Positions 15,361 to 47,557 of a DNA stretch of 51,431 bases are shown here, piece after piece; position 1 is the stretch's first letter, and every line of letters begins with the position of its first letter. Made by a program: the position numbers and the translations under genes. This DNA comes from Byssothecium circinans (Eukaryota; Ascomycota; Dothideomycetes; Pleosporales; Massarinaceae): contig ML976980.1 in the NCBI GenBank assembly GCA_010015675.1, forward strand, positions 1,451,959 to 1,503,389, written 5' to 3'. The notes under the pieces were generated by a model. The model ran no database searches, was not told the origin of the DNA, and worked only from the letters and a program-made list of their open reading frames with translations.

Positions 15361-15798
15361 GCCTGGTGAGTCTAGTTTCGCGACTTGGGTTGTAACGTGA
15401 TCGCTGTGGTTGAACGCAGTTTCCCATACGAGATCGGATGGGATGGGTTGCGGAAGCCGGGAATCTCGACATGACCGAGGCGTTCGCGCAGTAAAATACT
15501 AAATACTATCTTTTTTCTGGTACTTTGTCATGTTCCTCGTGTGTTACAAGATACCATTGGTCTGCGAGCAAGAAGCTAGTGATTGTGGTGCCTTGAAGTA
15601 GCGGCTTATGCTGCAGGTGTTCCGAGGGGCGGAGGCCGACCCCACCTCTCTGGGAGACGTGTTGCGTCCCACATCTGGTACGACAGTCATGAAAAAATCC
15701 CGCGGTCGCGTGAGAGCTCGCCTAATGCGTTTGAAAGCGCACTTAGGAACTGTTATATATATTATTTATTCCAAAATTCTCCCATAATTCAATAACCA
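15361..15798. other. Gap between the monooxygenase remnant and the tRNA gene
   Basis: May contain the lost N-terminal part of the pseudogene (15361-15470), but I cannot recognise it. The region just before the tRNA is AT-rich (15745-15795), common upstream of Pol III genes. Confidence 0.4.
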
Positions 15799-15805
15799 GC
15801 CCGGT

Positions 15806-15817
15806 TAGCTCAATCGG
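15806..15817 (+). promoter_or_regulatory. Pol III A box of the tRNA-Lys gene
   Basis: TAGCTCAATCGG follows the TRGCNNARNNGG consensus and overlaps the D arm. Confidence 0.8.
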
Positions 15818-15835
15818 TAGAGCGTGAGACTCTTA

Positions 15836-15866
15836 GGTTTCACTTTCTCAGAAAGCGATTGTCGGT
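15836..15866 (+). other. Canonical tRNA intron, 31 nt, between positions 37 and 38
   Basis: It lies one base 3' of the anticodon, the site cut by the tRNA splicing endonuclease in eukaryotes. Within it CTTTC and GAAAG can form a small hairpin. It has no GT...AG ends, unlike the second insertion. Confidence 0.85.
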
Positions 15867-15881
15867 ATCTCAAGGTTGCGG

Positions 15882-15933
15882 GTTAGTCTCATCGATCTTA
15901 AAATTCAAAAAATTCGTCTAACAGTCGTTACAG
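15882..15933 (+). other. 52-nt spliceosomal-intron-like insertion in the tRNA T arm
   Basis: The sequence begins GTTAGT and ends TTACAG, with CTAAC at 15918-15922, 11 nt before the end. It is AT-rich in the middle (TTAAAATTCAAAAAATTCG). Its length and branch-site spacing match protein-gene introns in this same window; for example, the SRP72 intron ends CTAACAGAAGCAG. Excision between G15881 and G15934 restores the T stem and TTCGACC loop exactly. A GGTT direct repeat (15881-15884 and 15933-15936) flanks it, so the boundaries can slide by up to 4 nt without changing the mature tRNA. I infer splicing; the sequence alone does not show it. Confidence 0.75.
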
Positions 15934-15943
15934 GTTCGACCCC
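15933..15943 (+). promoter_or_regulatory. Pol III B box, completed by the last base of the insertion
   Basis: GGTTCGACCCC matches the GGTTCGANNCC consensus. Its first G (15933) belongs to the insertion, so a full B box survives downstream of it. The A-to-B distance becomes about 125 bp, within what TFIIIC tolerates. Confidence 0.75.
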
Positions 15944-15963
15944 CGCATCGGGCTTGAAGTAAA

Positions 15964-15969
15964 TTTTTT
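15964..15969 (+). terminator. Pol III terminator, T6
   Basis: Six T residues begin 10 nt after the tRNA 3' end, as expected for a tRNA transcript. Confidence 0.75.
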
Positions 15970-29800: not shown

Positions 29801-31012
29801 GCTGCAAAAAGCTCTAGTCGTCAAGCTAGTGAAACGTCATCTCAAGGCCATTCTCCTCGCTATCGGCGACGGCGCCAACGATGTTTCTATGATTCAGGCT
29901 GCGCATGTCGGTATCGGTATCAGCGGTATGGAAGGTCTCCAAGCTGCTCGAAGCGCAGATATTGCCATTGGCCAATTCCGCTATCTTCGCAAACTCCTCC
30001 TCGTCCACGGCGCCTGGAGCTACCACCGTATCAGCAAGGTCATTTTGTATTCGTTTTACAAAAATATCGCGCTGTTCATGACGCAGTTCTGGTATTCGGG
30101 ACAAAACGCTTTCTCCGGGCAGATCATCTACGAGTCTTGGACACTCACCTTTTACAACGTCTTCTTCACCGCTGCCCCGCCTTTTGTGCTGGGTATCTTT
30201 GATCAATATGTCAGTGCTCGCCTCCTGGACCGATACCCACAGCTCTACCGCCTCACACAATCCGGCACCTTCTTCAAGATGCACTCATTCTGGTCTTGGG
30301 TTGCAAATGGCTTCTACCACTCCCTCATCTTGTACTACGCATCCCAGGCATTTATCCTATGGGACTGGCCGCAATCCGATGGTCTCAACGCAGGTCATTG
30401 GGTCTGGGGATCAGCACTCTACACGGCCGCCCTTGCCACTGTACTGCTCAAGGCAGCGCTCATCACCAATCTCTGGACGAAGTACGCCGTGCTCGCCATC
30501 CCAGGCTCCATGGCACTCTGGTTCATTCTCTTCCCCGCTTACGCCATCGTAGCACCCAAGCTCAACATCTCAACCGAGTATATCGGCGTCATCCAGCGCC
30601 TGTTCCCAGACCTGAGGTTCTGGGCCATGGTCTGCGTTCTTCCCCCCCTCTGCCTGATTAGAGATTTTACGTGGAAATATGTTAAGAGGATGTACTTTCC
30701 CCAGAGTTACCATCATGTGCAAGAGATTCAAAAGTATAATATTCAGGACTATAGACCTCGGTACGTTATTTATCCCCTTCCTCCTCCTCTTTCTTTCTCG
30801 TTTTCTCCTGGAGACTGTTGCTGATGACGCTTGTTTGCAGAATGGAACAGTTCCAAAAAGCTATCCGCAAAGTACGCCAAGTACAGCGCATGCGCAAACA
30901 GCGCGGCTATGCCTTTTCGCAGACCGATGAGTCGCAGGCCCGCGTCCTACAGGCGTATGATACTACGCGGGAGCGCGATCGCTATGGGCATATGGCGAGT
31001 TCTAGGAGGTAG
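26892..31012 (+). CDS. DRS2: P4-type ATPase, phospholipid flippase of the Drs2 family
   Basis: Exon 26892-30760 and a short last exon 30841-31012 give 1346 aa; the only intron is 80 nt near the 3' end. It should move phosphatidylserine or phosphatidylethanolamine from the lumenal to the cytosolic leaflet of trans-Golgi membranes, together with a Cdc50-type beta subunit. Motifs are complete: DGETNLK near residue 378 (actuator), the phosphorylation site SDKTGTLTQN with Asp602, KGADTVIL in the nucleotide domain, LTGDRQETAINI, and GDGANDVSMIQ near residue 992. The transmembrane pairs and the acidic N-terminal tail (ENLIDFDD) fit Drs2 rather than Neo1 or Dnf1. The C-terminal tail ends with a basic QRMRKQRGYAFSQTDESQ segment of the regulatory kind. 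Confidence 0.95.
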
Positions 31013-40822: not shown

Positions 40823-42808
40823 ATGGAGCAAGCTTCTGAGAAGCCCACTCCGCCAATGGCATCGAGTAACTCCCCGAATCGCTCGCGGAATCGTTCCCGC
40901 GACCGCTCGCCAAATCACGACAGGAAGCGCAGGCGAGGCGACGGTGACTACCGCAGAGGAGGCGGTCGGGGCAGGAATGGCAGGGGAAACCTTCAGCACG
41001 GCAGCCATTCGCACAAGAAGAGAAATATGGGGCGTAACGAGCACTTGTAGGTTGCCGTCGAACCGCATATGCGCTTCTCTAACTAAGCAGCCGCGAGCAA
41101 CTAGATCGACGGAGCCGCAATGAGGAACAGCAAGCGAAGAACAAGCAAAAGGCAGACCAGAGCGACCAGTCTATTCTGCCGTCAGCATTCCCCGCCGAAG
41201 AGGTCGAGGCGGAAGAGCGCCGTCCGAAACGCAAAGTCGCCGTGATGCTGGCCTACTCGGGCACAGGCTACAAGGGCATGCAGATCGACAACAAGCAAAA
41301 GACGATTGAGGGAGATCTATTCAAAGCCTTCATCGAGGCGGGCGCAATATCGAAAGCCAATGCCGACGATCCCAAGAAGTCATCGCTTGTACGATGCGCC
41401 AGGACGGACAAGGGCGTGCATGCCGCGGGGAACGTCATCTCTCTCAAGATGATCATCGAGGATGAGGATATTGTCGAGAAAATCAACAGCCATCTATCGC
41501 CGCAGATTCGGATATGGGGCATCCAGCGGACGACCGGATCTTTCAGCTGCTACCAGGCTTGTGACTCCCGATGGTACGAATACCTGATCCCGACGCACTC
41601 GTTCCTTCCGCCGCATCCATCAAGTTTTATGGGCAAGAAGCTGGAAGAATATGCAGCGAGCGAGAATGATCTGGAAGGGTATCGGCAACGTCAGGCAGAG
41701 GTGGCCGACTTCTGGCCGGAAATTGAAGAGAAGCACATCAAACCAATTCTGGATGCTATGGACGACTCAATACGACCGCTCGTGTTGGAAGCACTATACA
41801 ATGTCGAAGCTACTGATGCGTCGGAGGGTGATCCTTTGATAGATGCTGCAATTGACGTCAAGGATAAGAAGCCTCCAGCACCCACTGCTGATGATATGTC
41901 TAAGACCGACAAGCCCAATGAACCGACGGATGCCGAAGTGAAAGAGGCAGTGGAAAATGTTCAGAAACAGGAACCTGAGGTTATTCTCGACGACCAGACT
42001 GATGGCTCCGTAGCCCTGCCTGACTCAGTAGTGAATAAACCTGCACTGGAGACCGCCATCAAAGACCTCAAGAAGGCCTACATGGACGCAAAAAAGGCAT
42101 ATCGTATCTCACCACAGCGACAGGCCCGAGTCCAGGCCGCTTTGGATAGATACGTCGGCACCCACATGTACCACAACTACACAATTCAAAAGAAGTTCTC
42201 TGATCGCTCCGCCCAACGCTTCATCAAGTCGTTCAAAGTCGCCGACAAACCCATCATTATCAACAACACCGAGTGGCTATCTCTCAAAGTACACGGCCAA
42301 AGCTTTATGATGCATCAAATTCGCAAAATGGTCGGTATGGCTGCGCTCACGGTGCGTTGCGGAACCAATCCCGAGATCATGGACAAGTCCTTCACCAATG
42401 TTACTGTACGGATACCAAAAGTGCCTGGTCTGGGACTGCTTCTTGAGCGGCCGGTCTTCAAATCATATAACGAGAAGCAGGCCAAACAGAGCGGCAGAGA
42501 AGATATTGACTTTTCCAAGTATGACAAGGAAATCGAGGAGTTCAAGGAGCGTGAGATCTACCAGCGCATCTTCAGAGAAGAAGCGCAGGGCAACCAGTAA
42601 GTGGTAATAATTCTATATTTACAATCAAGAACTAATGTGGTGCAGATTCAACGCTTTCTTCACTCATCTCGACAACTACAAGGACCCGACCTTCCTTTAC
42701 TTGACCTCTGGCGGCCTCGCTGCAACGAAGAAGAAGCTGGACAGCAAGTCGATGCAGGCAAAATGGGAGGATTCGGACGACGAGAACGCCTCCGGTGGTG
42801 AAGGATGA
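40823..42808 (+). CDS. PUS1: tRNA pseudouridine synthase Pus1
   Basis: Three exons, 40823-41046, 41091-42596 and 42646-42808, give 630 aa. The enzyme converts uridines at several tRNA positions (and some in snRNA and mRNA) to pseudouridine. The N-terminus is a basic Arg/Ser-rich tail suited for nuclear import and RNA binding (RSRNRSRDRSPNHDRKRRR). The catalytic TruA-like domain begins at VAVMLAYSGTGYKGMQ. The nucleophile is Asp181 in RCARTDKGVHAAG. A long charged insertion (about residues 320-405) precedes GTHMYHNYTIQKK, and SFMMHQIRKMVGMA forms the last catalytic block. At 630 aa it is longer than yeast Pus1 (544 aa), mostly because of the tail and insertion. Confidence 0.94.
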
Positions 42809-45791: not shown

Positions 45792-47557
45792 ATGGCTTTT
45801 CTCAAAGTTTTTTCTGCCTCGCTTTTCGCGACCGCGGCGGTTGCGGTCCCGTATGGAACGCACAGCCGCGCGAATTCTGCAGAGGCCAGTGCAACGGGAC
45901 CTGTCGTCACTGTGAAGAATGGTACGCTTGAAGGCGTGCATTCAGAGCAGTACAATCAAGACTACTTCCTCGGCATCCCGTTCGCTCAACCACCCGTTGG
46001 CGACCTGAGATTCCGCACCCCGCAACCGATCAACACTTCCTGGACATCGACATACAGTGCAAAGGAGTACAGCGCCGCTTGCTATGGCTACGGAAGCGAT
46101 CAGTGGGCGTATCCCAAACTCTCTGAGGACTGCCTCTACCTATCGGTTGTTAGGCCCAGTGGGTATGAAAAGGAGAGCTTACCAGTAGCTGTTTGGATCC
46201 ATGGCGGTGGATTGACGCAGGGAAGCAGCGTTGATCAAAGGTATAACTCGAGCTTTATGATTCAGAGGAGCGTTGATATTGGGAAGCCGATTATCGTGGT
46301 TAATATCAATTACCGACTTTCGATGTGGGGATTTATCACGGGAGAGGAGGTTGTGGATAGTGGAAATGCGAATTTGGGGTTTAAGGATCAGAGATTGGCG
46401 TTGCATTGGGTGCAGGAGAACATTGCTGCTTTTGGAGGTATGATCTGTGAATCTGATTGAGAACTGGAAGGTTGGACTGCAAGCTAACAAAAGAAATAGG
46501 CGATGCCGACAAGGTCACCATCTTTGGTGAATCAGCTGGAGCACTGTCAACTGGTATGCACCTCGTCGCCTATGGCGGTCGCGACGACTCCCTCTTCCGC
46601 GGTGCCATCTTGCAATCGGGCAACCCCATCAGCTACAGTACCTGGAAGTACAACGCATCGCATCTCCAAGAAGCCGCCTCAGCACTCGGCTGCGGTAACG
46701 CAACCACCAAGCTCGACTGCCTCCGCACCATCGACACCTCGACGCTAAACACCTTCATCAACAGCACCGCCGGCCGAACTCTAGACTGGCAACCCATCAT
46801 CGACGGCGACTACATCCAAGGCCCGACCTCCGCCCAACTCGCCAACGGCGCCTTCGTCCACGTCCCCATCATCGACGGCGCCAACAGCGACGAAGGCACC
46901 GCCTTCGGTCCCAAACCCGTCAACACGGAACAAGACTTCCTCAATTTCCTGCAAACGGCCCCGCGACCCCTCCCCATCAGCGCGGAGAAAGCCCAACAAG
47001 TCATCGACGCCTACCCGGCCGATCTCTCCACCTACGGCGTCCTCGTCCCCGCCAACCAGCCCCTGAACTGGACTCCCCCGGTCTCCTCGGGCGCCGCGAG
47101 CCGTCGCTCAGACGCTTACTACGGCGACGTAACCTTCATCGCCCCGCGCCGCAAGACGTGCCAGACCTGGGCCGCCGCCGATGTCGACGCCTTCTGCTAC
47201 CGTTTCAACACCGTGCCGTCCTTCCTCCCCGACTCCATCGGCGCCACGCATTTCCAGGAAGTCGCCTTCGTCTTCAACAACCAGAAAGGCGTTGGGTATC
47301 CCCCCGTTGCTACGAATCCCTTCGAGGGCAAGCCGGAGAATTACTTCCGGCTGGCTGAGACGATGAGTGCGGCTTGGGTTAGCTTTGTGAGCGAGTCGAA
47401 CCCGGGCGCGTTTTGGCCGAGGTATGAGAGAGTGGGGGGACGGGACTGGGTGTTTGATGCTAATGTTACGGGCTTGGGGTATGCGGAGACGGATGATTGG
47501 AGGAAGGAGGGGATCGATTTGATTAATTCTTGGGCCGTGGAGGTTTATGAACGGTAG
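45792..47557 (+). CDS. Secreted type-B carboxylesterase/lipase
   Basis: Two exons, 45792-46437 and 46500-47557, give 567 aa. A signal peptide (MAFLKVFSASLFATAAVAVP) sends it out of the cell. The alpha/beta-hydrolase fold of carboxylesterase B is clear: GIPFAQPPVGDLRFRTPQP, SEDCLYLSVVRP (start-of-family signature with Cys), VWIHGGG (oxyanion hole), and the nucleophile in FGESAGALS, Ser227, just after the intron. A probable acidic residue lies in NSDEGTAFG and the His in GATHFQEVAF. Many N-glycosylation sequons are present. The substrate is an ester or lipid, not predictable. The gene is intact; the intron separates the oxyanion region from the nucleophile. Confidence 0.91.

Follow-up and report, generated by a model that had tools for sequence, protein, structure and literature searches.

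Transfer RNA genes of Byssothecium circinans were found to be interrupted, at many sites of the tRNA body, by short inserts resembling the introns of mRNA genes. In nuclear tRNA genes, introns are expected at position 37/38, where a protein endonuclease removes them; at least 15 genes, among 54 tRNA-like loci examined in this genome, carry an extra insert with GT (once GC) and AG ends outside that position. We put at about nine in ten the probability that functional tRNA precursors undergo spliceosomal excision here, alongside the action of the tRNA endonuclease, and production of these tRNAs probably requires the machinery that splices mRNA. This reading draws on the anatomy of the genes, the splice marks of the inserts, the pairing restored by their removal, the failure to find unsplit copies for several isoacceptors, and the retained Pol III elements, all of which are seen directly in the genomic DNA.

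The window, i.e., the whole stretch of 51,431 nucleotides that was analysed, contains one of these genes on its plus strand, a tRNA-Lys-CTT gene matched by cmscan to RF00005 at positions 15799-15954 (+) with 42 bits, an E value of 1.3e-5, and two long unaligned inserts. Exon 1 (15799..15835, +) comprises the 5' strand of the acceptor, the D arm, and the anticodon part through position 37, and it holds an intact A box, TAGCTCAATCGG (15806..15817, +). It is followed by a canonical 37/38 intron of 31 nt, which is not of the GT..AG kind (15836..15866, +), and by exon 2 (15867..15881, +) with the 3' strand of the anticodon, the variable loop, and positions 49 to 52 of the T stem. The second intron (15882..15933, +), 52 nt long and of spliceosomal type, is located at T-stem position 52/53; it begins with GTTAGT, ends with ACAG, and features a branch-point motif CTAAC (15918..15922, +) from which 11 nt lead to the intron end. 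Exon 3 (15934..15954, +) provides the T loop, the 3' strands of the T stem and of the acceptor, and the discriminator T. The B box, GGTTCGACCCC (15933..15943, +), is unbroken in the DNA, its first G being the last base of the intron. A TATA-like element (15754..15763, +) is positioned approximately 45 nt 5' of the mature end, with TATAWW at -45, -43, and -41, and a T6 run downstream (15964..15969, +) is the likely Pol III terminator.

Excision of the 31 nt at 15836-15866 and the 52 nt at 15882-15933 resulted in a 73-nt tRNA in which 21 of 21 cloverleaf pairs are formed. The minimum free energy (MFE) fold of this spliced molecule was the cloverleaf, and ARAGORN, executed without introns, named it tRNA-Lys(ctt). 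Together with the cmscan match, the complete pairing confirmed the original prediction of a tRNA-Lys gene with an insert in its T arm. Using bacterial settings, ARAGORN called no tRNA in the whole window; with introns of up to 150 nt permitted, it reported tRNA-Lys(ctt) with a single 80-nt intron, which we think is a misparse of two separate introns. If the 37/38 intron alone was removed, ARAGORN without introns found nothing, a control that would fail for any 50-nt insert because no introns were permitted.

The start, the branch motif with its distance to the end, and the terminal bases of the 52-nt piece were all as had been claimed, and the claimed resemblance to mRNA introns of neighbouring genes held as well. 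Four mRNA introns of the window, all on the plus strand, were placed by homologous proteins: two in a PUS1-like gene (41047..41090, 44 nt, GTAGGT..CTAAC..CAG; 42597..42645, 49 nt, GTAAGT..CTAAT..CAG), one in an esterase gene (46438..46499, 62 nt, GTATGA..CTAAC..TAG), and one in a P4-ATPase gene (30761..30840, 80 nt, GTACGT..CTGAT..CAG), the latter being the best placement by the protein of a related species. For the intron at 41047..41090, the junction pair given is the only one of four protein-compatible pairs that is both GT..AG and close-branched. The PUS1-like protein matches a protein of B. circinans (Pleosporales, Massarinaceae) with 100% identity along 99% of the query, and a piece of the esterase does so along 96%. 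CTAAC is the sole CTRAY motif in the tRNA insert. Five placements of its junctions yield the same mature RNA, and only one of the five is GT..AG with a branch motif. Among 20,000 mononucleotide shuffles of the insert, none met the GT-branch-AG rule; this result, together with the presence of introns of this type in 14 further tRNA genes, supports the spliceosomal-type reading of the original prediction.

The genome search covered 48.4 Mb on 109 contigs. The 54 loci consist of 44 Rfam hits and 10 loci retrieved with A-box, B-box, splice-motif, and B-box-plus-terminator patterns; since 63 of 1497 candidates were scored in the Rfam tRNA search, which missed L045, and the B-box-plus-terminator matches are partly listed, the ratio of 15 to 54 is no estimate of a genome-wide share. 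The latter pattern also counts one place several times at long T runs. Seven Rfam hits carry the insert, namely the window gene (Lys-CTT a), Ser-GCT (L009), Thr-CGT (L033), His-GTG (L036), Thr-TGT (L040), Arg-ACG (L041, hereafter Arg-ACG_b), and Arg-CCT (L043), as do eight pattern-found loci, namely Lys-CTT b (L045) and c (L046), Lys-TTT (L112), two Asn-GTT genes (L089 and L111), Val-CAC (L116), Arg-CCG (L117), and Pro-CGG (L118). Thus, three Lys-CTT genes, one Lys-TTT gene, and two Asn genes are affected, and all Lys and Asn tRNA genes found carry the extra intron. The two Asn genes were retrieved by a branch-to-acceptor pattern, so that their motifs cannot count as separate support, whereas splice marks played no part in finding the other 13. 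Three of the four new B-box-plus-terminator matches chosen for a tRNA-like 3' end contained such an intron, and the pattern-found Pro-TGG gene (L115) was ordinary, with a 37/38 intron and no extra insert. L060, described below, is the remaining one of the ten pattern-found loci. By eye, no tRNA was seen in L113 and L114. Of the further pattern matches, 3 of 29 with one mismatch, 3 of 15 with two or three mismatches, and less than half of those to the branch-to-acceptor pattern were inspected as loci. The 15 interrupted genes are spread over 13 contigs. An assembly or sequencing artefact, which might be considered given that a single assembly is the basis of the analysis, would have to account for different inserts with coherent splice marks in this many genes and contigs, and we regard its probability as negligible.

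The inserts occupy nine distinct positions in tRNA numbering, which was assigned by hand: 3/4 (Pro-CGG and Thr-CGT), 4/5 (Arg-ACG_b), 16/18 (Arg-CCT), 18/19 (Arg-CCG), 21/22 (Val-CAC), the variable arm (Ser-GCT), 50/51 (Thr-TGT), 52/53 (Lys-CTT a and b, both Asn genes, and His), and 57/58 (Lys-CTT c and Lys-TTT). While the T-arm location predicted for the window gene was correct, the phenomenon is not confined to the T arm, as the acceptor stem, the D loop, and the variable arm are interrupted elsewhere. This number of positions suggests that the insert was gained many times independently. The introns of Lys-TTT (L112) and Lys-CTT c (L046) contain a stretch resembling the adjoining T arm (GTGGGTTCGAATC in L112), which may point to an origin by local duplication.

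Insert lengths range from 48 to 64 nt with a median of 52 nt in the 15 genes, compared to 44, 49, 62, and 80 nt in the four window mRNA introns used for reference. A group I or group II intron was rejected as an alternative, the inserts being far shorter than a structured ribozyme of hundreds of bases. Fungal introns are described in the accessible part of PMC5832005 by the consensus elements GTRWGT, RCTRAY, and YAG, with 6 to 36 nt between branch and acceptor. Consistently, the donor sites of the inserts are GTRWGT-like: GT is found in 14 of 15 and GC in one (Arg-CCT), position +3 is A in 13 and T in 2, position +5 is G throughout, and position +6 is T in 14. The acceptor is YAG in 15/15 (10 CAG and 5 TAG). 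A CTRAY motif, present as the sole copy per intron and with 9 to 12 nt following its A, i.e., within the distance given for fungal introns, occurs in 14 of the 15, whereas Arg-ACG_b has a weak branch, with CTAAA only, 5 nt from the intron end. A strict rule for mRNA introns (GT[AT]NG[TC], CTRAY 6 to 25 nt before the end, and YAG) is obeyed by 13/15 inserts. For 12 inserts that were shuffled, the same rule was satisfied in 0 to 2 of 20,000 shuffles each, and for the 12 genes tested exactly one fitting junction exists among 1 to 5 equivalent placements.

These marks bear on an alternative in which the tRNA endonuclease and ligase excise the inserts as non-canonical tRNA introns, a mode known from archaea and the red alga Cyanidioschyzon, and in which the GT, branch, and AG motifs arose by chance. 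Some positions of non-canonical introns in archaea, nucleomorphs, and Cyanidioschyzon, as given in the available text of PMC4090602, are indeed close to the sites observed here. Coincidence is, however, hard to reconcile with strict splice marks at the junctions of 13 genes and their rarity in shuffled sequences, and GT..AG ends are absent from all 29 of the 37/38-type introns extracted from this genome. Of these control introns, 21 were placed by ARAGORN and 8 by hand, the 37/38 introns of Thr-CGT and Arg-ACG_b not being included; for at least L015, L016, and L026 the ARAGORN anticodon is disputed and the exact ends may be off. The inserts also lie away from 37/38, the position of an endonuclease-type intron. 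A search for a bulge-helix-bulge (BHB) structure, by pairing at all equivalent junctions of 12 genes and by folding, gave at best 3 of 4 pairs in the central helix; as this crude test yields no more than 3/4 for 37/38 introns too, it is weak and does not by itself exclude an endonuclease origin. Taking these observations together, we consider endonucleolytic removal of the extra inserts very unlikely and spliceosomal removal the preferred reading.

All 12 genes tested retain an uninterrupted A box and possess a B box. In Lys-CTT c and Lys-TTT, the intron cuts the B box (GTTCG^A), and a new B box is located inside each intron (AGTTCGAATCAC and GGTTCGAATCAG, respectively); shuffling of the two introns produced a new B box in 1.4% and 1.0% of cases. 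The Thr-TGT intron likewise holds a B box (1.1% of shuffles), the gene's own B box being intact. Among tRNA genes lacking the extra insert, 18 of 29 have TATAWW 30 to 70 nt upstream, compared to 11 of 290 background places; among the interrupted genes for which 90 nt of upstream sequence was examined, 7 of 10 have it, the exceptions being Lys-CTT b, Asn a, and Thr-TGT. For Thr-CGT and Arg-ACG_b, whose first exon measures 3 to 4 nt and whose A box is situated beyond a 52- or 56-nt intron, the TATA element precedes that tiny exon by 42 to 44 nt, a placement that supports its transcription within the tRNA precursor. A search for a B box plus a T5 run recovered at least 10 of the 15 interrupted genes among the matches listed, two genes being unable to match the pattern. 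Among these matches, a T5 run in range was absent for His-GTG. The genes on C63 and C53 are outside the matches listed, and for the C63 gene a T5 run was seen in L110.

After excision, all 15 genes possess 7/7 acceptor and 5/5 T-stem pairs in an imposed cloverleaf, and ARAGORN recognized the expected tRNA in each of the 15 spliced sequences. MFE folding gave a four-arm cloverleaf in only 4 of 12, i.e., Lys-CTT a, b, and c, and Arg-CCG, the last with a shifted anticodon loop. In Lys-TTT, one D-stem pair is broken (20/21, with the register set by hand). The mature parts of Lys-CTT a and b are identical at 73 of 73 positions, while their T-arm introns agree in 38 of 54 aligned columns and the similarity of their flanks is near the shuffled level; likewise, Asn a and b are identical over 74 of 74 mature positions, and their introns agree in 36 of 59. 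Lys-CTT a and c differ at seven positions, all of them in stems and with pairing preserved, and in three pairs both partners are altered. Among the three, T-stem pair 50-64 flanks the intron, and the 50-64 change is shared by Lys-TTT and Lys-CTT c. We take these patterns as signs of selection acting on the spliced product.

The genome was checked for intact tRNA-Lys-CTT genes, as proposed with the original prediction, and none was found: the spliced 73-nt query returned only three loci, each broken at the insert. No unsplit close copy was detected for Lys, Asn, Ser-GCT, Thr-TGT, Val-CAC, Arg-CCG, or Pro-CGG, although diverged isodecoders could escape such a search. A joined query of eight other spliced tRNAs retrieved the known split loci, with every match interrupted at the junction, and in addition Arg-CCT (L043) at 83%; this query missed the intact His gene, and Thr-CGT and Arg-CCT were outside the copy queries. 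The Ser-GCT anticodon arm had one exact match and five matches with two mismatches (control, five). In the search for relatives, a 28-base exon pattern gave no match in viral contigs. Other copies without the extra insert were identified for His-GTG (L001) and for Arg-ACG (L016, whose anticodon was read by hand since ARAGORN misnames this locus).

Decay of a gene copy had been named as the main alternative for the window gene, and decayed copies or pseudogenes with insertions could in principle account for the others as well. Short insertions in the D or T arm of eukaryotic tRNA genes mostly affect a single member of a large synonymous set and are presumed to mark pseudogenes, according to the part of PMC4090602 available, and the unsplit copies of His-GTG and Arg-ACG would suit this view. 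It is contradicted by the split state of every Lys and Asn gene found and by the identity of paralogous exons, on which grounds it was rejected; the window gene and L045 share GTTAGT, CTAAC, and CAG although insert and flanks have diverged. The compensatory stem changes between Lys-CTT a and c, the A and B boxes in all genes tested, and the recovery of most interrupted genes by the B-box-plus-T5 search argue in the same direction. For single-copy genes, the pseudogene test consists of structure only. Overall, we consider decay extremely unlikely and retain the view of functional, spliced precursors.

A variant compatible with this view is that the introns are spliceosomal but mostly regulatory, conditional splicing limiting certain tRNAs, or that some of the genes are silent; the split His and Arg-ACG copies could be spare, other copies without the insert being present. 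For Lys-CTT and Asn-GTT, however, the copies found are all split, and these tRNAs are indispensable, which implies that splicing is at least efficient there. Our guess is that a mostly regulatory role is unlikely.

The following course of events is proposed. The interrupted genes would be functional nuclear genes, with Pol III using the internal A and B boxes, presumably together with the upstream TATA element, to transcribe them, and the primary transcript would contain one or two introns. Where a 37/38 intron is present, which is the case in 10 of the 15 genes, the tRNA endonuclease would excise it and tRNA ligase would join the exons, as is usual; the other intron, at one of many sites in the tRNA body, would be short, of U2 type (GU-AG), and taken out by the spliceosome. 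Spliceosomal excision is expected to come before end trimming by RNase P and RNase Z and before export, all of which require the acceptor and T arms, with the endonucleolytic removal of the 37/38 intron following thereafter. Only once the spliceosomal intron is out could the interrupted element, be it the acceptor stem, the D arm, or the T arm, fold and become recognizable to end-processing enzymes, synthetases, and ribosomes. On the evidence of the gene sequences, it appears quite likely that spliceosomal introns invaded the tRNA genes of this lineage repeatedly, that the reading of Lys, Asn, and Ser-AGY codons, and of several codons for Arg, Pro, Val, and Thr, has become obligatorily spliceosome dependent, that two unrelated splicing systems must act one after the other on many tRNAs, and that introns breaking the B box bring a replacement Pol III element.

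Several known systems share features with the one described here. Some lichen fungi carry spliceosomal introns in nuclear rRNA; these resemble the present inserts in being spliceosomal introns of a non-mRNA transcript and differ in that the rRNA host is a Pol I transcript. In comparison to canonical eukaryotic 37/38 introns, with which they coexist in the genes noted above, the extra inserts differ in place, in sequence, and, as we infer, in the enzyme that removes them. U3 and U6 were described in 2017 as the only small structured RNAs so far known to be often interrupted by introns, with direct evidence from Saccharomyces cerevisiae and Neurospora crassa for excision of U3 introns by the pre-mRNA machinery (PMC5832005, accessible part); the abstract of that paper calls U3 a Pol III transcript. 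Like the fungal U6 snRNA and U3 snoRNA introns outlined there, the inserts reside in a small structured host RNA and bear GTRWGT, RCTRAY, and YAG marks; unlike them, they interrupt a tRNA, lie in the body of that tRNA, and often accompany a 37/38 intron. The U6 gene of this genome (C14:277621-277720) covers model positions 1-105 in 100 nt without an intron and hence lends no local support to the U6 precedent. A second, shorter U6 match in opposite orientation (G000:C14:277874-277936) lies approximately 150 nt from it.

In eukaryotic tRNA genes with an intron, the canonical position is the usual one, exceptions being nucleomorphs and Cyanidioschyzon, and archaeal non-canonical introns are found at 3/4, 20/21, 22/23, 45/46, 53/54, 56/57, and other positions, according to the available portion of PMC4090602. 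The detection of non-canonical introns in archaeal tRNA genes is described in the visible part of PMC8450103. As in the tRNA genes of Crenarchaeota, Cyanidioschyzon, and nucleomorphs covered by the former source, insertion sites here include 3/4, the D arm, the variable region, and the T arm, and a gene may hold several introns. In contrast, the archaeal introns, as far as these sources could be consulted, have BHB-type sites, and those of the Guillardia nucleomorph measure 3 to 24 nt, their splicing being said to be unknown (PMC4090602, same portion), whereas the inserts in B. circinans measure 48 to 64 nt and feature GT, a branch motif, and AG. The accessible parts of PMC6726248 and PMC4457414 contain nothing on tRNA introns. 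Searching by title and the beginning of the abstract, with preprints and most subscription journals not covered, we found no report of spliceosomal introns in nuclear tRNA genes. As far as checked, the intron type and Pol III-type hosts (U6 and U3) are known, and what is new is the tRNA as host, the many sites, and the presence of introns in the only copies found of several isoacceptors.

If the proposal is correct, translation capacity would be tied directly to the spliceosome, which would work on short Pol III transcripts having as few as 3 to 4 tRNA bases in the first exon, and the genes would provide a natural system for intron gain under structural constraint at every base. tRNA finders built for 37/38 introns would miss or misread such genes, and related fungal genomes may seem to be without whole isoacceptors. 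The 44 Rfam hits obtained from the candidates scored included no Met, Trp, Tyr, or Phe tRNA, anticodons being read by hand, and some of these genes may be hidden behind further spliceosomal introns.

A few additional tRNA-like elements were noted. At L060:1408-1522, the acceptor and T arm are paired and the anticodon stem is not clear; a locus at G000:C18:252286 has the same 3' end, and the two possibly represent another unusual intron. L029:1501-1572 and L039:268-339 each show an anticodon loop of 8 nt ('tcac' in ARAGORN), with a second B-box-like stretch following closely downstream. Five similar 81-nt elements (like GGTGGGATGGCTTAGTGGTAGAGTG...) on different contigs (L031, L032, L035, L037, and L042) are perhaps tRNA-derived repeats. 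Finally, at approximately 1501-1530 of L054, a B box, GGTTCGAATCC, is closely followed by a T7 run, with no evident tRNA body upstream, and this element is possibly another Pol III RNA.
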